The notes beneath the pieces were generated by a model. The model was not told the DNA's origin. It was given only the letters and a program-made list of their open reading frames with translations, and did not search any database. The translations under genes were made by a program, and so were the position numbers. A stretch of DNA of 14,548 nt from Treponema sp. (GTDB taxonomy: Bacteria > Spirochaetota > Spirochaetia > Treponematales > Treponemataceae), in assembly GCA_012513125.1 (NCBI GenBank), contig JAAZCS010000185.1, positions 1-14,548 on the forward strand, given 5' to 3'. Positions 2,818 to 14,548 of the stretch are shown here, piece by piece (position 1 is the stretch's first letter; the number at the start of each line of letters is the position of its first letter).

Positions 2818-4272
2818 ATGAACGAAATCAGAAAAGTAACTTTGAAAAAAGCAATGTGTGCAGTCGATTTAGGTGATGGTAGTGAACGTGGTTTATATGT
2901 AAATCAAGACTATATTTTGGAAAAAATGAAAAGAATTCATAGGGGAATAAGTTTAATGTATACTTATTATCCAAAGGATGAATCTTGGCCTGTAAGAGCA
3001 AGCATAGCTCATCCTCAAAAAGTTCCGTCTGGAGCTTGGGATTATCCATATGAAGATTATTTTCCATATAGAGGGGGCGTTGAAGGTAAAACCGATGACG
3101 AACCATTTGTTTTCATGAAAGAAATTCGTCAGCGAGGACAGGATGTTGTTCTGACAATGACAATTGATCCAAAACTAACGCGTGAAGATTTGATTTTAGT
3201 TGCAAAAGATTTGCGTTGTTACGGAAGGGTTTTTCTAAGGGTAAATCATGAATGTACTGGAGGATGGTTTTGCTTTACGAAACGAGCAACTTATCCAGAA
3301 TTGGCAGACTTTTTTGTTCTTGTAAGCAATGTTATGCATGAATATGCACCAAATGTAAGAATGATTTTGTGTGCTGGAATGTTTGATGAAGCAGCTCAAA
3401 AAATTGAAATGGAAGATATCTTTCTTGAAGCTTATAAAGTTGCAGATTATTGGTCAGGCGATAAATATTTATCACTTAACTGGGGTTGGCCTGTTGAAGT
3501 GGCAAAGAAAAATGGAAAGCAATTTATTTGTTATAATGTTGATGAAGTTTATGATTGTGCAAAGAAAACATGGAAAAGATTGAAAGAAATTACTGGTCAA
3601 GATAAAAGAATGCTTCTTTCTGAATTAAATGCAGATGGAGATGTTACCGGTGCTTACGAACAAGCAAATATGATGAAGCATTTTATGGAAAAACTTCGTA
3701 AAGATAAAGAGAACTGGCTTTCCGGATTCACTATGTATCAATTTAGGGATGATGGTCGTTTGGGGCTTGAAATAACAAATCCAAATAACAAAGAAGTAGG
3801 AATTGAACAGCCAATTTTAAGTGTTTATAGAGATGAAATATTAAAAGAATATTTTAATCCAAAGATTGAAGTTGGTGAACAAATTAAATTTCCGTATATG
3901 TTGCGTTGGGGAAATTCAGAAGACGCAGATGGTTTGGAAGTTTCTGTAAAAGTTGATAAAGATCCTCATTATGCAGAACTATATTTTGGCGAAGATTCAA
4001 TTGATTCAAATCTAATGATTGAATTAAATGGATATTGGTTCTATAAAAAATCAGGTGTAAAGTGTATAGATTTAATGAGTTACTTTTATAACAATAAAAT
4101 CAAAAAGAATTCTGAAATCAAGTTACGATTCTTTGCACCACCAAAAACAGGGTTAAATGAAGAAAATGATAATTACGACTGGCAAAATAATTATTTCACT
4201 GAAATAAATTCGTTGCCAGAAATACGTATTGAAACAGAGCCTGTCAGTTTAGTAAAACATTATAAAGATTAA
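2818..4272 (+). CDS. GH26-like (clan GH-A) glycoside hydrolase, putative beta-mannanase/mannosidase
   Basis: A 484-residue protein without signal peptide or membrane segment, so probably cytoplasmic. Residues about 1-340 look like a retaining TIM-barrel hydrolase. RVNHECTGGWF (141-151) matches the His-Glu acid/base motif followed by G-x-W-F seen in family GH26, giving Glu145 as candidate acid/base. MLLSELNADG (265-274) offers Glu269 as candidate nucleophile. A conserved-looking stretch, GFTMYQFRDDGRLGLE, follows at 303-318. Residues about 345-484 appear beta-rich and may be an accessory domain. The start is limited by an in-frame stop at 2797-2799; no clear Shine-Dalgarno sequence is visible, which is odd. 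It converges on a CE2-type esterase. Family assignment rests on motifs only; another clan GH-A family is possible, and the substrate (mannan) is inferred. Confidence 0.55.
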   Translation: MNEIRKVTLKKAMCAVDLGDGSERGLYVNQDYILEKMKRIHRGISLMYTYYPKDESWPVRASIAHPQKVPSGAWDYPYEDYFPYRGGVEGKTDDEPFVFMKEIRQRGQDVVLTMTIDPKLTREDLILVAKDLRCYGRVFLRVNHECTGGWFCFTKRATYPELADFFVLVSNVMHEYAPNVRMILCAGMFDEAAQKIEMEDIFLEAYKVADYWSGDKYLSLNWGWPVEVAKKNGKQFICYNVDEVYDCAKKTWKRLKEITGQDKRMLLSELNADGDVTGAYEQANMMKHFMEKLRKDKENWLSGFTMYQFRDDGRLGLEITNPNNKEVGIEQPILSVYRDEILKEYFNPKIEVGEQIKFPYMLRWGNSEDADGLEVSVKVDKDPHYAELYFGEDSIDSNLMIELNGYWFYKKSGVKCIDLMSYFYNNKIKKNSEIKLRFFAPPKTGLNEENDNYDWQNNYFTEINSLPEIRIETEPVSLVKHYKD

Positions 4273-5363
4273 AAGCTTAATAATTCTTTTGCTAAAATTT
4301 CGGACATTTTAATATGGGTTTTTGAAGAAGGATGCCAATCTGCCGCAATTCCGTCAGTATCCGATTGAACTGGAAATTTGACAGATTTGATTTTGGCAGA
4401 TGGGAATTCTTTTTTGAATAAATTAATTGCTTCGTCAATTGAATCACATAAATCTTGACCCATAACTCCAAGGCAACAACAAATTTTTGCATTCTGATGT
4501 ATTCGATGAATATTTTCAATAAACAAGAATAGGCTGTTAACGTAAGATAAGCGACGTTCTTCAATTTTTCTAACAAAACTAGCATCATTTGTTCCAAGGT
4601 TTATTACGACAATATCAGGGGAAAATTTTGAGTTGTCCCAAACCTCTGGTTCAAGACCTAATCGTGATTGACATGATTTGTCTGTATAAGGAAATAAACC
4701 GGGCATTACTATTGATGTGTCAGGGATGTTTATTGATTCATCAACATATTTTGAAATAAGTCCTATTCCGCTCCAGCTGACAAGATTAAAGTCTGCATTT
4801 AGTTTTTTAGCTGTTTGAAAGGCGTAAGCCAAATCTGGTCTTTCTTGTTGTGTTGTAAAAGTATCTTTTTCGAAAACGCCTTCTATTCCGTATCCACAAG
4901 TTATTGAATCACCAATAAAAAGTATCTTTTTCTCAGTTGAAGGATTTTTATTTACTGAATGAATAAGTTTTCCTTCTATTTCTACATTGACAAGACCAGC
5001 ATATGAAAAAGCACATTCACTTAGTTTTAGAACTTTTATACAAACTGTTTGTGGTTTGTCTGATTCAAATATTGTAAATGTTTCTTCCGGTTTTGTAAGA
5101 ATTAACTTTTTTGAAAGGTCTCCTGAAAAATTTGACCAAAAAGAATGATTTTCATATTTATCTGAAGAAGTATTTGAAATGTAAATTCCTAAAACGCCTT
5201 TTGTTGTATTATCCCAAGATGAGGCATCGCTTTTTATTGTAATTTCAGCTTTCGTTCCTGTAAAACAAAAATCAAATCCACTAGCTGAGAAGTCGAAATA
5301 ACGAATATCTTTATAGTCAAAATTTCTTCCGTACCAATTTAATTCATCTTTTGTTAATTTCAT
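4269..5363 (-). CDS. SGNH/GDSL hydrolase, carbohydrate esterase family 2 (CE2) type acetylesterase
   Basis: A 364-residue two-domain protein with no signal peptide. Residues 1-140 are beta-rich, as in the jelly-roll N-terminal domain of CE2 enzymes. The SGNH hydrolase domain starts with ILFIGDSITCGYG (147-159), nucleophile Ser153. The oxyanion Gly is in SWSGIG (196-201), the Asn in LGTND (256-260), and the D-x-H pair is Asp342/His344 in DWHPS. The GDSITCGYG block and the N-terminal sandwich favour CE2, whose members remove acetyl groups from xylo-, gluco- or manno-oligosaccharides. The ATG overlaps the argA stop as TAATG, with AAGGA inside the argA end, so translation is probably coupled. The stop overlaps that of the convergent GH26-like gene. 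Lack of export suggests action on imported oligosaccharides. Substrate is inferred. Confidence 0.8.
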   Translation of the reverse strand: MKLTKDELNWYGRNFDYKDIRYFDFSASGFDFCFTGTKAEITIKSDASSWDNTTKGVLGIYISNTSSDKYENHSFWSNFSGDLSKKLILTKPEETFTIFESDKPQTVCIKVLKLSECAFSYAGLVNVEIEGKLIHSVNKNPSTEKKILFIGDSITCGYGIEGVFEKDTFTTQQERPDLAYAFQTAKKLNADFNLVSWSGIGLISKYVDESINIPDTSIVMPGLFPYTDKSCQSRLGLEPEVWDNSKFSPDIVVINLGTNDASFVRKIEERRLSYVNSLFLFIENIHRIHQNAKICCCLGVMGQDLCDSIDEAINLFKKEFPSAKIKSVKFPVQSDTDGIAADWHPSSKTHIKMSEILAKELLSF

Positions 5364-6676
5364 TAGTTTTTCCTTAATCTATAAACTTTGGAATTTCTAT
5401 CTTGAGACCAGAGTGCAAGCCTTTCCTGTGGTAGGGAATTTAAATTGTCAAGTTCAAATCCTAGTTTTTCAAACCAATCGGAAGCTTGTGTTGTTAAGAT
5501 AAAAATATTGTTTATTTTATTTTGATGTGCTTTATTGATTAAAAAGCTTATCATTTTTGGTCCAATTCCCATGTGAGCAAATGAATCATCAACTGCTACG
5601 GCTGCGATTTCTGCTTGATTGTCCTGATAAACGTGAAGAGAAGCACACGCTCTTATTCCTCCGTCTAATTCGTAAACAATATAATCGTTTATTGATTCTT
5701 CTATTTGATTTTCTGTCCGAGGTAATAATTTTCCAGAATCGACGAATGGTTTTTGAATTGATATTACAGAAGGAATGTCATTTTGTTGCATAGAACGAAT
5801 TGTTCCGTAATCGCTTGTGTAAATCATTGTTCCAGAACCCAAATCAGAAAAAATCTCACTTAGAATTACGCCATCAACATTTCCATCAACTATGTGAACA
5901 CGAGTAACGCCATTTTGGCATGCTTCTTTTGCAGATGAAAGAAGGGCTGGAATTGTTCCTGTTGAAGATGGATTTTCTTTAAGAAATAAATCAACCTGTG
6001 TTAAGTCCATGGCTGGAATATTGCCATTTTTAGTCAATGGGAAATTTTGAGGGATGTTATACAAAGATGAATTTAGTGTTGGAGAACTGACATAAAAGAA
6101 AAGTTTATCTGCCTGAAGATTAATTGCGATTTGTTGTGCCAGAGATACTGTTGAAATATTATATGGACGACCAATAGAATTCCAGCCAATGCATGGAAAA
6201 ATAGGAATAAAACCATCAGAAAGAACTGTTTTAATTGATGAAACTTCCAATTTATCAATTTCGCCAGCGGTACCATAATCAAAACCGTCAATAATTCCTT
6301 TTGCACGAGAACGAACCCAATTTCCAATTACGGCAGTAATACCATTTGCGGCAAGACTAGTCATTACAGTATTAGAAACATCAAATGCCGCCATTTTAAT
6401 TAATGGCATCGCTTCTGAAGAGGTGATTCTTACATTATTTTTATATGTCCATTTGATTTTTGATGTTGTAAGAATTTCATCTATCCTATTTCTTGCACCT
6501 GGGATAATTATCACTTGCAGTCCTGCTTTATGAAGAAGAGCAATATCATTTATATGGCTAGAAAATAAAGATGAATCTATTGTTTTTTCATCAATATAAA
6601 TAACAATCAGTGCATTTTTAAATTGTTGGACGTATCGAATAACGCCACGAATATTTTCAGCTTGTTTTGATTTCAT
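5363..6676 (-). CDS. argA: Amino-acid N-acetyltransferase (N-acetylglutamate synthase)
   Basis: Makes N-acetylglutamate from glutamate and acetyl-CoA, the first step of arginine synthesis. The 437 residues match classical ArgA (about 440). Residues about 1-280 form an amino-acid-kinase fold used for allosteric arginine binding rather than catalysis (VIIIPGARNRIDEIL, near 55-69). Residues about 290-437 are the GNAT acetyltransferase, with the acetyl-CoA loop in AHMGIGPKM and the ArgA-typical end LTTQASDWFEKLGFE ... LPQERLALWSQDRNSKVYRL. AAAGGA lies seven bases before the ATG. The gene follows queH after 62 bases and overlaps the esterase gene by one base. A weak promoter candidate, TTGAAT-17-TATTGT, sits at 6714-6742 on the minus strand. 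No other arginine gene lies beside it, except carA across the divergent junction. Confidence 0.92.
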   Translation of the reverse strand: MKSKQAENIRGVIRYVQQFKNALIVIYIDEKTIDSSLFSSHINDIALLHKAGLQVIIIPGARNRIDEILTTSKIKWTYKNNVRITSSEAMPLIKMAAFDVSNTVMTSLAANGITAVIGNWVRSRAKGIIDGFDYGTAGEIDKLEVSSIKTVLSDGFIPIFPCIGWNSIGRPYNISTVSLAQQIAINLQADKLFFYVSSPTLNSSLYNIPQNFPLTKNGNIPAMDLTQVDLFLKENPSSTGTIPALLSSAKEACQNGVTRVHIVDGNVDGVILSEIFSDLGSGTMIYTSDYGTIRSMQQNDIPSVISIQKPFVDSGKLLPRTENQIEESINDYIVYELDGGIRACASLHVYQDNQAEIAAVAVDDSFAHMGIGPKMISFLINKAHQNKINNIFILTTQASDWFEKLGFELDNLNSLPQERLALWSQDRNSKVYRLRKN

Positions 6677-6738
6677 GATACCGTCCTTTAATTAACATAG
6701 GCAATAAAAATTTACAATATATATTTTAACTCAAAAAT

Positions 6739-7383
6739 TCAATTCTTTTTTTCTGATGAGTTGTTAAGAGAATAAATACAGCCACAATAATCTTGCCTAT
6801 AAAGATTATATTCTTTGCTTAATTGTAAGCTTCTTAAAAATCCGCTGCTTTTCTTAAAATCAGAAAAAAGCCACTTTGTTTTACTGTCTTTGCATAATTC
6901 TTCACCTATTTCATTTATTTGTAAAGAATCTTTAAATGGACTTATTGATAGAGTTGTACAAAAAAAGTCAAAATTGTTATGCTCTGCATATTCAAAAGTC
7001 TTTTTAAGTCTAAATTTATAGCAAAGATGACAACGATTACCTTTTTCTTTTTCATTTGCAAATTCTGGATGATTAATAATATCGATTGAAGAATAAAAAT
7101 CATCAGGGTTATAAATTTCTTCTATTAGTTTTACTTTATTTTGAATAACTGGCGGAAATTCTTTGTAAAAATTCTTTAATTCTGACAATCGTCTTTCATA
7201 TTCAGCAGAAGGATAAATGTTTGGATTATAAAAAAAAACAGTAATATCAAAATGAGAAGATAAATATTCAAGAACATATGAAGAACACGGCCCACAACAA
7301 GCGTGAAGTAAAAGTTTTGGTTTTGAATTATTCTGCAAATTGATTAAAATATTATCTAATTCTTTTTGATAATTGTGTTTCAT
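6739..7383 (-). CDS. queH: Epoxyqueuosine reductase QueH
   Basis: Catalyses the last step of queuosine synthesis in tRNA, reduction of epoxyqueuosine, in organisms without QueG. The 214-residue protein shows all the cysteine motifs of the family (formerly DUF208): LLLHACCGPCSS with Cys29, Cys30 and Cys33; GNRCHLCYKFRL with Cys118 and Cys121; and DYCGC with Cys200 and Cys202. These hold the iron-sulfur/metal centre described for QueH. The stretch FCTTLSISPFKD (141-152) is also typical. There is no evident ribosome binding site; the ATG overlaps the stop of the preceding gene as ATGA, which points to translational coupling. Other queuosine genes are not in the window. Confidence 0.93.
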   Translation of the reverse strand: MKHNYQKELDNILINLQNNSKPKLLLHACCGPCSSYVLEYLSSHFDITVFFYNPNIYPSAEYERRLSELKNFYKEFPPVIQNKVKLIEEIYNPDDFYSSIDIINHPEFANEKEKGNRCHLCYKFRLKKTFEYAEHNNFDFFCTTLSISPFKDSLQINEIGEELCKDSKTKWLFSDFKKSSGFLRSLQLSKEYNLYRQDYCGCIYSLNNSSEKKN

Positions 7384-7811
7384 TGTTCTGAATTAAGAGT
7401 TTCTAAATAACCTTGGCGAAGAGCGTTTGTTGCAGTACTGATAAATACAAGACTTCCGAGTTCATCAGATTTAACAACTGGAACTATTGGTTTATTGTTT
7501 AATATCATGTCATCAATAATCTTTGCAGCGTTTAATCCTTTTGAACCTTCATTTTCAATAATGTTAATTTTTTCAATTTTATGGTTTAGGACAGTAATTT
7601 CAAGCGTTAAATGCATAAAACTTGTTTTGGAAGAGCTTGTATAAGTTCCGTCTTGAACTTGATCCATTGAAATTGTGTAATATGGTAATTCTCTTGCTTC
7701 TTTGATTTGAGATCTGCCTTTTTGTACAAAAATGGAACAAAGCATTAGGACAGCTACAATTGAAACTAATAAAAAAGGAATTTTAACTTTCATAAAAAAA
7801 TTATATAACAT
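7380..7811 (-). CDS. Membrane-anchored FMN-binding domain protein
   Basis: A 143-residue protein with an N-terminal membrane segment at about residues 11-30 and a single FMN_bind-type domain at 48-138 (DGTYTS ... LEITVLNHKIEKINIIE ... STATNAL). In relatives such as RnfG and NqrC, a Thr in an S-G-A-T motif carries covalently bound FMN, attached by ApbE. Here the motif reads STAT, with Thr128 in the equivalent place, so a flavin attached outside the cytoplasmic membrane is plausible but not shown. The translation start is uncertain: Met1 or Met7 (7793) both fit, and neither has a Shine-Dalgarno sequence. It is first in the operon with queH, sharing ATGA. The Cys25 context (VLMLC) is a poor lipobox. 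Electron-transfer partner unknown. Confidence 0.72.
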   Translation of the reverse strand: MLYNFFMKVKIPFLLVSIVAVLMLCSIFVQKGRSQIKEARELPYYTISMDQVQDGTYTSSSKTSFMHLTLEITVLNHKIEKINIIENEGSKGLNAAKIIDDMILNNKPIVPVVKSDELGSLVFISTATNALRQGYLETLNSEQ

Positions 7812-7872
7812 TTATAGAAAAAAAATAATAGTTGTTGATAGAAAGTTAGAAAAACCATACAAAATATATCAA

Positions 7873-7901
7873 TTGACAAAGAAAGTTTATATCAATATCT
7901 T
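7873..7901 (+). promoter_or_regulatory. Promoter of carA
   Basis: TTGACA (7873-7878), a full -35 match, is 17 bases from TATCTT (7896-7901). Transcription would start near 7908, leaving a leader of about 88 bases that holds the attenuator hairpins. Confidence 0.65.
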
Positions 7902-7909
7902 ATAAAACT

Positions 7910-7978
7910 AATGAGCTGGGCGTTCATTCAATTTCCTAACAGAATGTGTTGTTGGAAAATAGGATGAGCGCCTTTTTT
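7910..7978 (+). promoter_or_regulatory. carA leader attenuator (intrinsic terminator with competing upstream hairpin)
   Basis: GGCGTTCAT (7919-7927) pairs over nine positions, one of them G-U, with ATGAGCGCC (7964-7972), which is directly followed by six T (7973-7978). Inside, TTTCC (7932-7936) pairs with GGAAA (7954-7958) and AACA (7938-7941) with TGTT (7950-7953), so the whole segment forms one long terminator hairpin before the carA start. Upstream, AATGAGC (7910-7916) can pair with GTTCATT (7922-7928), using the same bases as the terminator's 5' arm. Two mutually exclusive folds in the leader of a biosynthetic gene indicate transcription attenuation. I do not recognise a known riboswitch or the PyrR-binding loop; the signal (arginine, pyrimidine, RNA-binding protein or leader translation) is unknown. 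Confidence 0.65.
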
Positions 7979-7995
7979 GAAAGAAATGAGGTTCT

Positions 7996-9294
7996 ATGAA
8001 TAAAGCTGTTTTGCTACTTGCAAATGGGCAAGTTTTTGAAGGAAATGGATTTGGTGCTTCTGGCTGTATAATTGGAGAAGCGGTTTTTACAACAGGTATG
8101 ACAGGTTATTTGGAAACACTAACAGATCCAAGTTATTATGGTCAAATTGTTACTCAAACTTTTCCGCTGATTGGAAATTATGGAGTTATTCATCCTGATT
8201 TTGAAAGTGAGAAAAGTCATGTTCGTGGTTATATAGTGCGTGATTTTTGTGATAAACCTTCGAATTTCCGCTGTGAAGGAGATTTGGATTCATTCTTAAA
8301 ATCAAATCAAATAATTGGACTTTGCGGAATAGACACAAGAAAATTAACAAAGGTATTACGAGAAGCCGGAGTTATGAACGGAATGTTAATTTCTGGAGAT
8401 AGTGCTGAAGCAAAAGACGCGTTTGATTCACTAAATGATAAAAATAAAAAAGACGCATTAATACAACAAATAAAATCTTATACAATAAAAGATGCTGTAA
8501 AAACAGTAACTTGCAATGCAGTCAAAATTGAAGAATCTGCAGATGTTGTTTTTGAAACTAGTGCAAAGTATAGAGCAGTTCCAGTTACAAAAGATGGACT
8601 TAAGGTTAATGATGAAAATGAAGCTATGAAAAATGGCAAAGGCAAACGTGTTGTTCTTTGGGATTTTGGGGCAAAAGCGAATATTCGTAGGGAATTGCTA
8701 AAACGCGGTGTTGAAGTAATCACAGTAAAATGTGATACAAAAGCATCAGAAATATTAAAATTGAATACTGATGGGGTTATGCTGTCAAATGGACCGGGTG
8801 ATCCTTCTGAAAATGTAGAGATAATTACAGAGATTAAGAAAATTTGTGATAGTGGAATTCCTGTTTTTGGAATCTGCCTAGGACATCAGATGTTAGCTTT
8901 GGCTCAAGGGGCAAAAACCTTGAAATTAAAATATGGACATCGTGGTGGAAATCAACCGGTAAAACAGCTTTCTACTGGAAGAGTTTATATTACAAGCCAA
9001 AATCATGGATATGCTGTTGATAATGATTCATTGCCAAATAACGTAGAATTAAGCTTTGTAAATACTAATGATGGAACTTGCGAAGGAATCACTTATACAA
9101 ATATTCCAGCTTTTAGTGTTCAATTTCACCCAGAAGCAAGTGGTGGACCGCTAGACACAAACTTTTTGTTTGATGATTTTATTAATCTTATTAATAATCC
9201 AAAGTTATTTAAGGATTATAAGCAGAATTTTGAGCGTGTAGATGCTATCAGTTATTTTAATAGCACTATTAAAAAGACAAAAGAAGCAAACTAA
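7996..9294 (+). CDS. carA: Carbamoyl-phosphate synthase small (glutaminase) subunit
   Basis: Hydrolyses glutamine and passes ammonia to CarB for carbamoyl phosphate, the shared precursor of arginine and pyrimidines. The N-terminal CarA domain is clear (GEAVFTTGMTGYLETLTDPSY, GIDTRKLTKVLREAG). The class I glutamine amidotransferase domain begins near residue 218 with VVLWDFGAKANI and carries GICLGHQMLA with nucleophile Cys294, then FHPEAS with His378 and Glu380. At 432 residues it is longer than usual (about 355-385): a low-complexity insert of roughly 25 or more residues lies around 163-216 between the domains, and a polar tail extends past about 400. GAGG at 7988-7991 is only four bases from the ATG. 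carB does not follow; an intrinsic terminator does, so carB must be elsewhere. Confidence 0.95.
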   Translation: MNKAVLLLANGQVFEGNGFGASGCIIGEAVFTTGMTGYLETLTDPSYYGQIVTQTFPLIGNYGVIHPDFESEKSHVRGYIVRDFCDKPSNFRCEGDLDSFLKSNQIIGLCGIDTRKLTKVLREAGVMNGMLISGDSAEAKDAFDSLNDKNKKDALIQQIKSYTIKDAVKTVTCNAVKIEESADVVFETSAKYRAVPVTKDGLKVNDENEAMKNGKGKRVVLWDFGAKANIRRELLKRGVEVITVKCDTKASEILKLNTDGVMLSNGPGDPSENVEIITEIKKICDSGIPVFGICLGHQMLALAQGAKTLKLKYGHRGGNQPVKQLSTGRVYITSQNHGYAVDNDSLPNNVELSFVNTNDGTCEGITYTNIPAFSVQFHPEASGGPLDTNFLFDDFINLINNPKLFKDYKQNFERVDAISYFNSTIKKTKEAN

Positions 9295-9312
9295 ATTAAT
9301 TTTTTTTATAAA

Positions 9313-9346
9313 GCACCTTGAGAAATTCCTTGGGGTGCATTTTTTT
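9313..9346 (+). terminator. Intrinsic terminator of carA
   Basis: GCACCTTGAG (9313-9322) pairs with CTTGGGGTGC (9329-9338) over ten positions, three of them G-U, around a six-base loop. Seven T follow at 9340-9346. It lies 18 bases after the carA stop and before the cysK promoter, so the two genes are separate transcription units. Confidence 0.85.
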
Positions 9347-9355
9347 AGTTAAATA

Positions 9356-9374
9356 ACCTATTGACGGAGTAGGT
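9356..9374. promoter_or_regulatory. cysK operator dyad 1 (ACCTA-N9-TAGGT)
   Basis: A 19-base inverted repeat, ACCTA and TAGGT around nine bases, whose spacer starts with the -35 box TTGACG. A protein bound here would block the promoter. It has the same arm sequence and spacing as the second dyad at 9396-9414. The ACC...GGT arms recall sites of Rrf2-family regulators (IscR, CymR), which often control cysteine genes, but that assignment is inference. Confidence 0.65.
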
Positions 9375-9389
9375 ATAAGATGTTATAAA
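9361..9389 (+). promoter_or_regulatory. Promoter of cysK
   Basis: TTGACG (9361-9366) and TATAAA (9384-9389) are 17 bases apart, each five of six to consensus. Transcription should start near 9396, inside operator dyad 2. Confidence 0.7.
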
Positions 9390-9395
9390 TAATAA

Positions 9396-9414
9396 ACCTA
9401 TGTTGTAAGTAGGT
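9396..9414. promoter_or_regulatory. cysK operator dyad 2 (ACCTA-N9-TAGGT)
   Basis: Second copy of the ACCTA-N9-TAGGT inverted repeat, covering the predicted transcription start. Its centre is 40 bases from that of dyad 1, about four helical turns, so two bound dimers would sit on the same face of the DNA. The spacers of the two copies differ (TTGACGGAG and TGTTGTAAG), which argues that the arms are selected. Confidence 0.65.
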
Positions 9415-9422
9415 AAAAAAAC

Positions 9423-9428
9423 AAGGAG
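9423..9428 (+). promoter_or_regulatory. Ribosome binding site of cysK
   Basis: AAGGAG six bases before the ATG at 9435, the strongest Shine-Dalgarno sequence in the window. Confidence 0.8.
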
Positions 9429-9434
9429 CTTATT

Positions 9435-10367
9435 ATGTCGAACGTATTTACATCAGCAGACCAGTTGATTGGTCATACCCCACTTTTGGAACTATCTCAT
9501 TTGGAGAAAGAATTTAATTTAGATGCAAAGATTATTGCAAAAGTTGAATATTTTAATCCATCTGGAAGCGTAAAAGATAGAATTGCTTTTGCAATGATTG
9601 AAGATGCGGAGAAATCTGGAAAACTGAAAAAAGATTTTACAATAATTGAACCAACTTCCGGTAACACTGGCATAGGATTGGCAAGTGTTGCAGCTGCAAA
9701 AGGGTATAAAATCATTATTGTTATGCCAGAAACTATGAGTGTAGAACGTCGACAATTAATGAAAGCATATGGAGCAGAGCTTGTTTTGACAGATGGTTCA
9801 AAAGGAATGAAAGGTGCAATTGCTAAAGCCGAAGAATTATCAAAAAGTATTTCTAAAAGCATTATTCTTGGTCAGTTTGTAAATCCTGCAAATCCTGCAA
9901 TTCATGAAAAAACAACTGGACCTGAGATTTATAACGATTTAGATGGAAATGTTGATGTTTTTGTTGCTGGGGTAGGAACTGGTGGTACTATTACTGGGGT
10001 TGGACATTATTTGAAGTCAAAGAATAAGAATATAAAAATAATAGCGGTTGAACCCTCATCATCCGCAGTTTTGTCTACTGGAGTGTCAGGATGTCATAAG
10101 ATTCAAGGAATTGAGGCTGGATTCGTTCCAGAGATTTTAGATACTAAGATTTATGATGAAATTGTTACTGTAGAAAATGAAGATGCTTTTAAAACTGGAA
10201 AACTAATTGCAAAAAAAGAAGGAATTCTTACGGGAATTTCTTCTGGTGCAACTGTGTGGGCTGCTATAAGTGTTGCAAAAAGACCGGAGTTTAAGGGAAA
10301 GAATATCGTTGTATTATTACCAGATGCAGGGGATAGATATTTTAGCACACCCTTGTTTGCTGATTAG
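9435..10367 (+). CDS. cysK: Cysteine synthase (O-acetylserine sulfhydrylase)
   Basis: PLP enzyme that makes cysteine from O-acetylserine and sulfide in the cytoplasm. The 310 residues equal the family length. Seen in order: IGHTPLLEL (12-20); NPSGSVKDR (41-49) with the PLP Schiff-base Lys47; TSGNTG (74-79), the substrate loop; GVGTGGTITG (179-188), the phosphate-binding loop; HKIQGIEAGF (221-230); and GISSGA (267-272), which holds the pyridine nitrogen. The motif set is CysK-type rather than cystathionine beta-synthase, and no CBS domain follows. It is monocistronic: terminator before it, convergent cls after it. Its promoter is overlaid by two inverted repeats, so tight repression is likely. 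No cysE or transport gene is adjacent. Confidence 0.95.
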   Translation: MSNVFTSADQLIGHTPLLELSHLEKEFNLDAKIIAKVEYFNPSGSVKDRIAFAMIEDAEKSGKLKKDFTIIEPTSGNTGIGLASVAAAKGYKIIIVMPETMSVERRQLMKAYGAELVLTDGSKGMKGAIAKAEELSKSISKSIILGQFVNPANPAIHEKTTGPEIYNDLDGNVDVFVAGVGTGGTITGVGHYLKSKNKNIKIIAVEPSSSAVLSTGVSGCHKIQGIEAGFVPEILDTKIYDEIVTVENEDAFKTGKLIAKKEGILTGISSGATVWAAISVAKRPEFKGKNIVVLLPDAGDRYFSTPLFAD

Positions 10368-10375
10368 CCAATATT

Positions 10376-10450
10376 AAAAAAAATCTACACTAATGGAGAG
10401 AATATTCTGAAAACTCTTCCAATCATTCTTTTTATTAGTGGGATTTTTTT
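10376..10450. terminator. Possible bidirectional terminator between cysK and cls
   Basis: CACTAAT (10388-10394) pairs with ATTAGTG (10434-10440), and GGAGAG (10395-10400) with CTCTTCC (10414-10420) with one bulged base, leaving an unpaired stretch of 13 bases in one arm. Eight A lie on the left (10376-10383) and seven T on the right (10444-10450), so both cls (leftward) and cysK (rightward) transcripts would end in a hairpin plus U-run. Most of it is inside the 3' end of cls. The internal asymmetry makes it weaker than the carA terminator. Confidence 0.5.
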
Positions 10451-11968
10451 GTATTGTTCAATTGTAAATTCACTGCAATCATTTAGCGTATTTTCAAAAT
10501 CAGTTTTTATTTCATTAATGACTTTCGATTTGTAGATAAAAGTTCCGCACTCAAAATGATGGAAAAAACTTCTGTAATCTAGGTTTGCGGATCCAACAGT
10601 TGCAATTTTATCATCAGAAATAAATGTCTTTGCGTGGATAAAACCTTTTTCATAGCAGAATACTTTAACTGAATTTTCGATAAGATTTTTAATAAAAGTT
10701 CTTCCAATACAAAAAGTAATCAAGTGATCAGGTTTTTTAGGAACTATCAATATGACATTTACTCCTTTTTTGGCAGCAAAAATTAATGATTCTTTTATTT
10801 GATAGTCCAGAATGACATATGGTGTTGTGATGTATAAATATTGTCTCGAATTCTCAATAACATAATTGTAAACATCTTCAGCAATATCTTCATTGTTGTA
10901 TGCATCATCATCATACGGAATTAAAAGACCATCGGGTTCGTATGTTTTACTAGGAATGATATTCAAATATTTGTTAAAATCATCAGAAATTTTCATATTT
11001 GAAATATTCCATGTTTGTAAGAACATATTTGTAAAATTCTGAACTGCGGAACCTTCAATTTTAATAAAATTGTCTTTCCAATAAGGAAATCTGTTTTCTC
11101 CGACATTAAAATATTGATTGGCTAGATTAAGACCGCCTGTATAGCCTATTTCGCCATCTATAATGACTATTTTTCTATGATCACGATTATTTTGCTGTGT
11201 CGAAAAGAATGGTATTAGTGGCAAGAAAACTTTTGCTTTTATGCCAAGAGAATTCAGATATTTTACATATCTTTTAGTGGATGTCATTAATGAACCCAAT
11301 GCATCATAAAGAATACGCACCTCAACACCTTCAGAAACTTTTTGTTGCAAAACTTCTAATAGCAAAAGCCAAGATTCATCAATGTTGATAATAAAGAATT
11401 CAAGAAAAATGAATTTTTTTGCAGATTTTAGAGTGTTAAGAAATTTTAAATAAAAATCTTCACCACAAGAATAATATTCTAATTGATTATTAATATGGGG
11501 TTTGTTGGCACTTTGTTTTAATAAATAATAGCCGATTCCCTGTACTTCTGGAAATGATTCTAAGATTTTTAGTGAATTTTCATCATTTGCAATATATTCG
11601 TTTGTTTTCTTTTTGAGTTTTTCAAGTTTTGACCTTAGAAGAAGACCACCGCTATTGATATGATAGAGAATATAACAAGCTAATCCAAAAATAGGCATGA
11701 TTAATACTGGCAAAAGCCAAGCAAGTTTATATTCGTTTTTTCCTTGTATATTGGATAAATAGATAAAGAAAAGCAATGTAATGACAACATTACCACCGAT
11801 AAAATATTCAATATAAGGTTCTAGCTTTAATAAAATAAGAAATGAAAAAACTATTTGTGCAATTAATAAAAGGGCAATAATTACGACTCTGCTGTATACG
11901 CTTTGTTTTATTGCCCTTTTTACTTTTTTGTCTTTTATATATTTGTAGTTAAAATCCTCTTCGTTCAT
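10385..11968 (-). CDS. cls: Cardiolipin synthase (phospholipase D family)
   Basis: Condenses two phosphatidylglycerols to cardiolipin at the inner membrane. The 527-residue protein has hydrophobic segments at about 28-47, 59-72 and 82-103, then two phospholipase D catalytic motifs: DHRKIVIID with His264, Lys266 and Asp271, followed by GYTGGLNLANQY; and HAKTFISDDKIATVGSANLD with His445, Lys447 and Asp452. The order and the spacing of about 180 residues match bacterial Cls. It is slightly longer than usual, mainly at the N-terminus. The gene starts 34 bases after the rubrerythrin stop on the same strand and has no clear Shine-Dalgarno sequence, so it may be read from the rubrerythrin promoter, or from a weak one at TATAAA just upstream. 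Other PLD-type phosphatidyltransferases are possible but less likely. Confidence 0.92.
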   Translation of the reverse strand: MNEEDFNYKYIKDKKVKRAIKQSVYSRVVIIALLLIAQIVFSFLILLKLEPYIEYFIGGNVVITLLFFIYLSNIQGKNEYKLAWLLPVLIMPIFGLACYILYHINSGGLLLRSKLEKLKKKTNEYIANDENSLKILESFPEVQGIGYYLLKQSANKPHINNQLEYYSCGEDFYLKFLNTLKSAKKFIFLEFFIINIDESWLLLLEVLQQKVSEGVEVRILYDALGSLMTSTKRYVKYLNSLGIKAKVFLPLIPFFSTQQNNRDHRKIVIIDGEIGYTGGLNLANQYFNVGENRFPYWKDNFIKIEGSAVQNFTNMFLQTWNISNMKISDDFNKYLNIIPSKTYEPDGLLIPYDDDAYNNEDIAEDVYNYVIENSRQYLYITTPYVILDYQIKESLIFAAKKGVNVILIVPKKPDHLITFCIGRTFIKNLIENSVKVFCYEKGFIHAKTFISDDKIATVGSANLDYRSFFHHFECGTFIYKSKVINEIKTDFENTLNDCSEFTIEQYKKIPLIKRMIGRVFRIFSPLV

Positions 11969-12002
11969 AAATAAGGTTTATAACAAATAAAGATGAATTA
12001 AA

Positions 12003-12539
12003 CTAGTAGTTAGTTGCTTCGATTTGGAAATAGCTTTTTGGATGTACACAAACTGGGCAAACTTCAGGAGCTTTTTTTCCAACAACAATGTGTCCACAGT
12101 TGCGACATTGCCAAATTGAATCTCCATCGCTACTGAAAACTACTTCGTCTTCAATGTTCTTTAATAATTTGCGATATCTTTCTTCATGGTGTTTTTCGAT
12201 TGCTCCAACCATTTCAAAAAGTTTTGCAATGTAAGCAAAGCCTTCTTCTTTTGCTGTTTTTGCAAATGAACTATACATATCTGTCCATTCGTAGTTTTCA
12301 CCTTCTGCAGCAGCTTTCAAATTTTCAACAGTAGTACCAATATCACCGTTTAATAATTTGAACCACATTTTTGCATGTTCTTTTTCATTTCCTGCAGTTT
12401 CTTCAAAAATTGCGGCAATTTGTTCATAACCGTCTTTTTTAGCTTTGCTTGCGAAATAAGTGTATTTATTACGAGCCATTGATTCGCCAGCAAAAGCTGT
12501 TTGTAGATTCTGTTCTGTTTTTGTTCCTTTTAATTCCAT
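12003..12539 (-). CDS. rbr: Rubrerythrin
   Basis: Cytoplasmic non-haem iron peroxidase that reduces hydrogen peroxide in anaerobes. The 178-residue protein has the two expected parts. The N-terminal four-helix diiron domain (about 1-135) shows [12 protein letters not shown] with Glu19, NEKEHA with Glu52 and His55, and [10 protein letters not shown] with Glu115 and His118. The C-terminal rubredoxin-like domain (about 142-173) has CRNC (145, 148) and CPVC (161, 164) binding one iron. All ligands appear present. AGGAGA lies six bases before the ATG. A PerR-type box sits just upstream, so induction by peroxide is likely. Cls follows after 34 bases and may be co-transcribed. Confidence 0.96.
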
Positions 12540-12699: not shown

Positions 12700-14548
12700 A
12701 TGAGAACAATAGGTATAAAATTAGCAGATGGCACTTTTTATCCAGTTTTGGAAGAAGGAATGCCTCAAGAAAAAGAGTTAGAATTAACTACAGCTAATAA
12801 CAATCAGACAAGAGTTATGGTTGATTTATATCGTTCAAAAACTTGTACAATGAGTGACGCAGAATATGTTGATTCTCTTCAAATTGATAATATAATTGAA
12901 CATCCAACTGGTGAGCCTGATATTTCTTTTAATGTTTCACTTGATGAAAATAATCAACTTTCTGCAAAAATTGTCGATTCTGAAACAGGAGCACAAAGTA
13001 ATTCAACAATTACTTTAATTTCAAGAACATTGGAAGAAAGATTGAATACAGATAATTATGAAATTTCAGATAAAAAAACAAATGATTCAGATGGTGCGGT
13101 AAAAGCTGCAGTTGTCGGCGGTGGATTATTGGCAGCAGCGTCTTTGTTGAGCAAAGCGGAATCTGTTGAAGAAAAACCAGAAGTTACAAGTGAAGTGCCA
13201 GAAGAAATTACATCAGATGAAACAACTGAAACTGTGGCAGATTCTTTTGATGAAGTTGCAACTGAAGAACAAAGTTTCGAAGAACCAGTTGCAGATAAAG
13301 AACCAGATTTTGATGAACCAGGTTCTGACGCAACAATTGCAGATGACATTGTTACAGACGAGACCGTAGTCGAAAAAACAGCAGATGAAGACATTCTTTC
13401 AGATGATTTTAGCGACATAGAGATTCCTGAAGCTACAGAAAACTCACTTGATGATTTTAATTTGCCAGATGATTTTAATGAAACAGAACTAAAACCAGAA
13501 GAAAAACTTGAAGAACCTGATTTTGACATGGATACAGATGAACATTTTGGTGAAAGGGAAGATACTGAGGAAGTAAATCCTTTTGACGATACAGAACCAA
13601 AAGTTGAGGAAGAATCGTTGTCACAAGAGGATGATTTTTCTGATATAACAATACCAGATATGGATGAAAAACCTGAATCATTGTTGAGTAAAGCTGAATC
13701 ATTTGATGAAACATCAGAAGATAATACAGATTCAGTTGCAGACGAAACAATTGCAACTGCTTTTGACGAGGCAACAACTGAAGAACCAGCTTTTGAGGAA
13801 TCAGTTGCCGACGAAACAGTGCCAGAAGATACAGAAGTGAATGATTTTGACGAAACAATACCTGAAGAAACTTCTACAGACATGTTTGCCAACTCTTTTG
13901 ATGAGATTGCAGATAAAGAACCAAGTTTTGAAGAAACAGTTGCCGACGCAACAGTAGCAGATGACACTGTTACAGACGAGACCGTAGCCGAAAAAACGAC
14001 AGACGAAGACATTCTTTCAGATGATTTTAGCGATATAGAAATTCCTGAAGATACAGAAAACTCACTTGATGATTTTAGTTTACCAGATGATTTTGATTTA
14101 ACAAAAGAAAGTGAAAAATCAAAAGAAAACGAAGACGATATGTTTGTTATGGCTGATGACCAAAATAAAGGGGAAAATATGAAGGGAGAGAATTCTAATA
14201 CTGACAGAATCAGTTTTACGGGGCTTTATGATAAAGAAACGGAATTAGGTGAATCGTCTGTTCAAGAAGAGATAAAAAAGAAGACTAAAACACCTATGAT
14301 AATTTGTATAATTTGTGCGATTATTTGTATTTTGGCAACTTTATTAATCTTATTTATCATTCCTTCAAAATTGAATATTCTTACAAATAAAGCAGAAAAA
14401 ACAACTGAAAAAGTTATTAGGGTGGTAGAACAGGTACCTGGCCTCATTACCCCCGGTGTATGGGATGGACAGGCTTTTTCCATGAATAGTTCCATGTATG
14501 AGTATCTAGCTGAAATTAATGCAGATACTGGTGAACTTGATCCTATAC
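12700..14548 (+). CDS. Hsp70 substrate-binding-domain-like protein with acidic repeat linker and one membrane helix (partial)
   Basis: Open for 616 codons to the window end. Residues about 4-115 resemble the beta substrate-binding domain of DnaK: IGIKLADGTFYPVLEEG aligns with the segment after the DnaK linker (LGIE...GG...), TTANNNQTRVMVDLYRS with the TAADNQ..V.I.V..GE strand, then LQIDNI, PTGEPDISFNVSLDENNQLS and AKIVDSETG, as in DnaK's P.G.P.I.V.F..D..GIL.VSA.D..TG. There is no ATPase domain. A small hydrophobic stretch (136-150) follows. Residues 155-510 are strongly acidic, rich in Glu, Asp and Thr, with repeats: DDFSDIxIP at 235, 311 and 441, and an FEExVAD motif three times. A transmembrane helix at 533-554 has Lys on its N-terminal side, placing the acidic part in the cytoplasm and the tail outside. 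Function unknown; a client- or partner-binding scaffold is speculation. Confidence 0.8.
   Translation, partial: MRTIGIKLADGTFYPVLEEGMPQEKELELTTANNNQTRVMVDLYRSKTCTMSDAEYVDSLQIDNIIEHPTGEPDISFNVSLDENNQLSAKIVDSETGAQSNSTITLISRTLEERLNTDNYEISDKKTNDSDGAVKAAVVGGGLLAAASLLSKAESVEEKPEVTSEVPEEITSDETTETVADSFDEVATEEQSFEEPVADKEPDFDEPGSDATIADDIVTDETVVEKTADEDILSDDFSDIEIPEATENSLDDFNLPDDFNETELKPEEKLEEPDFDMDTDEHFGEREDTEEVNPFDDTEPKVEEESLSQEDDFSDITIPDMDEKPESLLSKAESFDETSEDNTDSVADETIATAFDEATTEEPAFEESVADETVPEDTEVNDFDETIPEETSTDMFANSFDEIADKEPSFEETVADATVADDTVTDETVAEKTTDEDILSDDFSDIEIPEDTENSLDDFSLPDDFDLTKESEKSKENEDDMFVMADDQNKGENMKGENSNTDRISFTGLYDKETELGESSVQEEIKKKTKTPMIICIICAIICILATLLILFIIPSKLNILTNKAEKTTEKVIRVVEQVPGLITPGVWDGQAFSMNSSMYEYLAEINADTGELDPI
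13327..13479 (+). repeat. Internal direct repeat, copy 1 (51 codons)
   Basis: This 153-base segment within the acidic linker recurs at 13945-14097, in frame, 618 bases (206 codons) further on. By hand count 140 of 153 positions agree, with no gap. It encodes the DDFSDIEIP and SLDDFNLPDDF motifs (residues 210-260). Confidence 0.85.
13945..14097 (+). repeat. Internal direct repeat, copy 2 (51 codons)
   Basis: Second copy of the in-frame repeat at 13327-13479, encoding residues 416-466 with DDFSDIEIP and SLDDFSLPDDF. About half of the 13 differences are silent, so the copies are older than a fresh slippage event but still close, as after a segmental duplication or gene conversion. Confidence 0.85.

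Follow-up and report, generated by a model that had tools for sequence, protein, structure and literature searches.

Why would a spirochaete encode the substrate-binding domain of an Hsp70 without the ATPase that accompanies it in the chaperone, and anchor it to a membrane? The question is raised by an open reading frame at the end of a 14,548-nucleotide stretch of Treponema sp. DNA (the window), which is the entire contig C4 of a draft genome in 406 contigs, 81% complete. An initial annotation, made from the letters alone, had described an isolated substrate-binding domain, a long acidic linker with repeats, a membrane anchor and an extracytoplasmic tail leaving the window. All of this description stands except, probably, the tail. 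The protein is not the oddity of a single genome, but a member of a conserved spirochaete family.

The protein at the contig end

The reading frame spans 12700..14547 of the forward strand (616 codons, with no stop before the contig ends). Residues 4-109 (12709..13026) form an Hsp70 substrate-binding domain β (SBDβ) sandwich, on which a Pfam profile and a predicted two-layer beta fold agree, and which corresponds to the residues 4-115 previously aligned to DnaK by eye. The profile match is to the C-terminal part of PF00012, beginning at model position 394 and protein residue 4, and at most 16 further open codons lie upstream (632 against 616); the nucleotide-binding domain is absent, as had been claimed. 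The helical lid (SBDα) is also missing, with no lid helices in an AF2 model of residues 1-130 and the acidic linker following directly. The model has an extra strand at 120-124, which may sit in the groove of the domain.

The linker (about residues 116-530, 13045..14289), presumably cytoplasmic, is as acidic as had been described, with 36% D/E and 4.5% K/R in residues 116-470, and its internal repeats include two 200 bp copies, 89% identical, at 13289..13488 and 13907..14106. A single transmembrane (TM) helix, placed by hydropathy at 14299..14367, starts at residue 534 just after a KKKTK motif, and relatives likewise have a TM helix between SBDβ and a LysM domain. Weak NCBIfam matches to GltJ were put down to the proline-rich and TM region. 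Elsewhere in the window, 2818-12539 holds ordinary Pfam neighbours (a GDSL/CE2 esterase, an AA-kinase plus GNAT, QueH, CarA, a PALP enzyme, a PLD-type protein and a rubrerythrin), with no Pfam match at 1e-5 for 2818-4272 and 7380-7811.

The final stretch, 14421..14548, is probably foreign to the gene, with a junction near 14420-14430. Compared with 59 relatives, the last 40 codons gave a sole match below E 0.07, to G057 (72%, E 2e-13), and this falls within a 504-aa SBP_bac_5 transporter binding protein; by DNA, the window end gave only chance-level matches to three SBD relatives. Conversely, contig C329 of the same genome ends in an open 100-aa frame that is a LysM C-terminus (PF01476, 38.6 bits), 77% identical to that of locus L003. 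Behind it come the lytic transglycosylase gene discussed below (LTase, cluster c0) and clusters c3, c4, c2, c5 and c6, the same genes that come after the SBD gene in L061 and other relatives. The last 40 residues were therefore rejected as the protein's own tail. The C329 LysM frame likely belongs to the reading frame broken off from C4, making the likely true build SBDβ, acidic linker, TM helix and LysM. The simplest account of the contig end is that it is probably an assembly chimera, which is preferred to a true rearrangement carried by some members of the population.

A conserved spirochaete family

The family was surveyed with the A1 profile, counting E 1e-20 or better as a strong match, a line above the level at which DnaK itself scores. 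Strong matches occur in 128 of 392 Spirochaetota genomes, declining with distance from all 50 of the same genus to 29/30 of the family, 25/31 of the order, 16/103 of the class and 8/178 of the phylum. This total is a lower bound, because weaker true members fall below the line: G409 is one, and G114 another, which at 54.7 bits has the SBD, the TM helix, LysM and LTase next door. A tally of 51 of 59 relatives includes G047, whose sole match (E 6.9e-5) is at DnaK's level. G056, G342, G047 and G376 have no strong SBD match despite a match to the flagellar FliF model; all four are drafts. G107, a genome of f6, seems to have two members of the family, with a short SBD-TM copy beside LTase and a longer reading frame elsewhere (L245 3602-4210; G107:C1:186606-186920).

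The build was read from two overlapping locus sets, in which genomes present in both are counted in both and masked loci are scored as misses. Set 1 comprises 80 loci (78 complete ORFs). The genome collection holds 347 relatives, of which the best 80 make up set 2 (77 complete ORFs), titled Treponema or unclassified Spirochaetes and including T. bryantii, T. porcinum, T. parvum, T. ruminis, T. socranskii and T. berlinense. LysM, one of the envelope domains for which a search of the tail had been suggested, is found in 69/78 complete ORFs of set 1 and 75/77 of set 2, and PF01476 is over its cut-off in the same ORF in L003, L028, L037, L188, L199 and L227, with none in L187. The long acidic linker is typical of the Treponema set rather than the whole family. 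Its median is 309 residues in set 2 (75 proteins, range 69-572). For 15 proteins from the order's other families the median is 59 (34-285), and for 20 from the class and phylum it is 65 (29-265), although the ranges of the three groups overlap. The mean numbers of K/R residues on the N- and C-terminal sides of the TM helix are 3.5/2.7 in set 2, 3.7/1.7 in the order's other families and 3.4/1.6 in class and phylum members together. This excess before the helix fits an N-terminus inside the cell, and the predicted topology is a cytoplasmic SBDβ with LysM on the wall side. The initial annotation knew of no described family of this build. Nor was any description of it, of tp0042 or of bb0260 found in the literature searched, which excluded most subscription papers; the parts seen of PMC5421087, PMC2386257, PMC7864442, PMC8517470, PMC3726837 and PMC3914990 hold no description of the family, and no NCBIfam model of an SBD-TM-LysM build was among the matches obtained.

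Whether the domain could still grip a peptide depends on its groove. Residue numbers here are those of DnaK, at what we take to be the equivalent alignment positions. Glutamine occupies position 433 in all 123 rows of a mostly Treponemataceae alignment and in all 37 distant rows, giving 160/160 non-Borrelia rows, of which many are close relatives or duplicates. Outside Borrelia, S427 (as T), T428 and V436 (V, I or A) are also largely kept, while the M404 arch position is mostly alanine. In the 13 Borrelia-type rows, the groove loop is lost, with no Q at 433 and K at T428. Peptide binding by SBDβ is thus a prediction from groove positions retained outside Borrelia. Such retention is what might be expected of a membrane-tethered holdase, in which SBDβ would hold unfolded clients, such as secretion or flagellar export substrates, and pass them to DnaK. 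Yet the lid and ATPase are missing, Borrelia has lost the groove loop and retains the locus, and the only chaperone recognised among conserved neighbour clusters was one judged by eye to be FKBP-like (c2), encoded within a few genes of the SBD gene in part of the genus. Hence a holdase appears improbable.

The initial annotation had also offered a regulator of DnaK, to which a competitor of DnaK may be added, and had suggested looking for a lone Hsp70 ATPase gene nearby. In this 81%-complete genome, PF00012 yields only the window gene, the two pieces of DnaK (the nucleotide-binding part on C123 and, on C312 next to DnaJ, the substrate-binding part) and a C291 fragment resembling MreB by eye; a nearby lone ATPase was accordingly rejected. 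The sequences of dnaK, dnaJ and a grpE-like gene are all on other contigs, and no DnaK system gene was noticed by eye in the neighbour-cluster samples. With homology to the DnaK substrate-binding domain as the one point in its favour, regulation of, or competition with, DnaK is very improbable. The same annotation's other proposal, a passive platform or structural scaffold, pointed in the right direction, and its concrete setting comes from linkage to a flagellar gene.

Linkage to a flagellar lytic transglycosylase

The gene following the SBD gene matches NF047373, "flagellar assembly lytic transglycosylase", at 602.8 bits against a cut-off of 234, with scores of 719 in G114 and 517.2 in G107, and the model is over its cut-off in 166/392 genomes. 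Where loci had room for a following gene, LTase was next on the same strand in 60/74 of set 1 and 75/77 of set 2. The 14 failures in set 1 were in f4, f6, f10, f18, f23, f25, f36 and two f1 genomes, and one of the two in set 2 has a masked stretch. Under automatic start choice, 32 of 34 measured gaps between the genes were 90 bp or less, or overlaps, and the pair presumably forms an operon. In G408, LTase and FliF are present with no SBD gene at LTase.

FliF matches (TIGR00206, E 1e-15) were found in 127 of 129 SBD-carrying genomes, these being the 128 with strong matches plus G114. This co-occurrence is confounded by descent, and FliF is much the wider of the two, in 344/392 genomes against 129/392 for SBD, leaving 217 FliF genomes without a strong SBD match. 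The two carriers without a FliF match, G353 and G038 (of 48 FliF-less genomes), would be natural if the protein were instead a general envelope scaffold, linking cytoplasm to peptidoglycan for shape or wall upkeep, with its neighbour serving general wall turnover. LysM binds cell walls in general, and the failed f6, f10, f18, f23 and f36 loci, where the SBD gene is not beside LTase, also fit such a role. However, the neighbour belongs to the flagellar LTase family rather than being any SLT, and in f13 every genome lacks both a strong SBD match and a match to FliF. A general scaffold therefore seems rather unlikely, albeit a more serious contender than the chaperone readings above.

Diverged copies extend the linkage to T. 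pallidum-like and Borrelia-type genomes. In the T. pallidum-like genome G114 (L235), the SBD gives no Pfam HSP70 match, and the tp0041-42 forward primer in the part of PMC7864442 seen matches just upstream of its gene. The gene is therefore taken as the tp0042-region gene, its number being inferred; identification as TP0046 was rejected, as it is the tp0041-42 primer that matches beside this gene. A G run lies at about 5361-5371 of L235, between a chemoreceptor gene and the SBD gene, and a poly-G site at tp0041-42 is listed in the same part of PMC7864442. Some kilobases from the SBD-LTase pair is a bactofilin-like gene (13052-13492; by eye, with no NCBIfam match), and TP0046-TP0048 are linked to motility in the portion seen of PMC2386257.

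The Borrelia-type family f7 has 36 genomes with LTase and none with a strong SBD match. In all 18 loci examined, however, an SBD-like protein is encoded directly upstream of LTase, with a TM helix near its C-terminus and no LysM. It gives no Pfam or NCBIfam match, and no HSP70 domain. Its alignment was thin (Neff 1.9), and profile comparison with the SBD family gave 92.8% probability over 102 columns, the E of 4e-7 being that of a single comparison. Of 13 copies, the SBD profile detected 11, at 18.9-24.1 bits, and missed two; L261 scored 25.5 bits. A primer used for the bb0259 knock-out, in the part of PMC8517470 seen, falls inside the SBD-like ORF of L261, which is therefore the gene upstream of bb0259; the numbering would make it BB0260, a name absent from that paper. 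In Borrelia-type loci, a TPR protein gene (5114-6484 in L236) lies divergently beside the SBD-like gene, resembling by eye the one beside the SBD gene in f5 loci.

A probable wall-held adaptor and its known counterparts

The combination of SBDβ, linker and TM helix recurs, usually with an LTase neighbour, whereas some lineages have lost LysM or the groove: Borrelia copies have neither LysM nor the groove loop, and LysM is also absent from examined members of f8, f9, f12, f22, f25 and one of f4. Hence an adaptor is favoured over a chaperone. The SBD protein would be a single-pass inner-membrane adaptor, whose cytoplasmic SBDβ head, having lost ATPase and lid, would hold extended peptides with no need of nucleotide cycling. 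From the acidic linker, the chain would cross the membrane into a periplasmic Pro/Glu-rich linker and a LysM domain holding peptidoglycan, thereby fastening to the wall a cytoplasmic partner that probably belongs to the flagellar apparatus, so that the LTase of the next gene would open peptidoglycan where the periplasmic flagellum passes. The domain build, predicted fold, conservation and linkage are observed, and with topology, LysM binding and functional pairing deduced from them, a membrane- and wall-held flagellar adaptor working with LTase is, on balance, the probable reading. The peptide partner of SBDβ and the direction of control are guesses, and a need for the SBD gene in flagellar assembly is predicted from gene linkage and co-occurrence. 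More tentatively, and with rather less confidence than in the adaptor itself, SBDβ may have become, at an early stage of Spirochaetia, the docking head of a dedicated flagellar protein, working without nucleotide and linking a flagellar component in the cytoplasm, across the membrane, to the local opening of the wall by LTase, in which case the gene upstream of bb0259 and the tp0042-region gene would be unrecognised flagellar genes of this family. If true, the peptide grip of an Hsp70 would be used without ATP as a fixed adaptor.

Compared with Hsp70, DnaK and BiP, the family shares the sequence and predicted two-layer beta fold of SBDβ (the C-terminal part of PF00012), but differs in lacking the nucleotide-binding domain, interdomain linker and helical lid, in having mostly alanine at M404, and in being joined to TM and LysM segments. 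A TM helix plus LysM (PF01476) is common to single-pass LysM membrane proteins, none of which, to our knowledge, has an Hsp70 SBDβ head. A functional counterpart involves SltF, a flagellar lytic transglycosylase recruited by FlgJ in Rhodobacter. In Borrelia, according to the part of PMC8517470 seen, BB0259 binds FlgJ and acts in periplasmic flagellum assembly, its mutants being non-motile; recruitment of the FlgJ-SltF type is cited there, and the authors suppose a pre-localised LTase that makes the opening in the wall needed by the periplasmic flagellum, the means of placing it not being given in that part. BB0259 (LTase-Bb, NF047373) represents the family of the adjacent gene, and is therefore the counterpart of the partner rather than of the SBD protein. 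For placing this enzyme, a direct candidate is the product of the conserved neighbour gene, with its TM helix and, in most cases, a domain that binds the wall. As with FlgJ and SltF, a non-enzymatic protein is paired with a flagellar transglycosylase, but whereas FlgJ is an exported flagellar protein, the SBD protein is a membrane protein with an SBDβ head and, usually, a tail that binds the wall.
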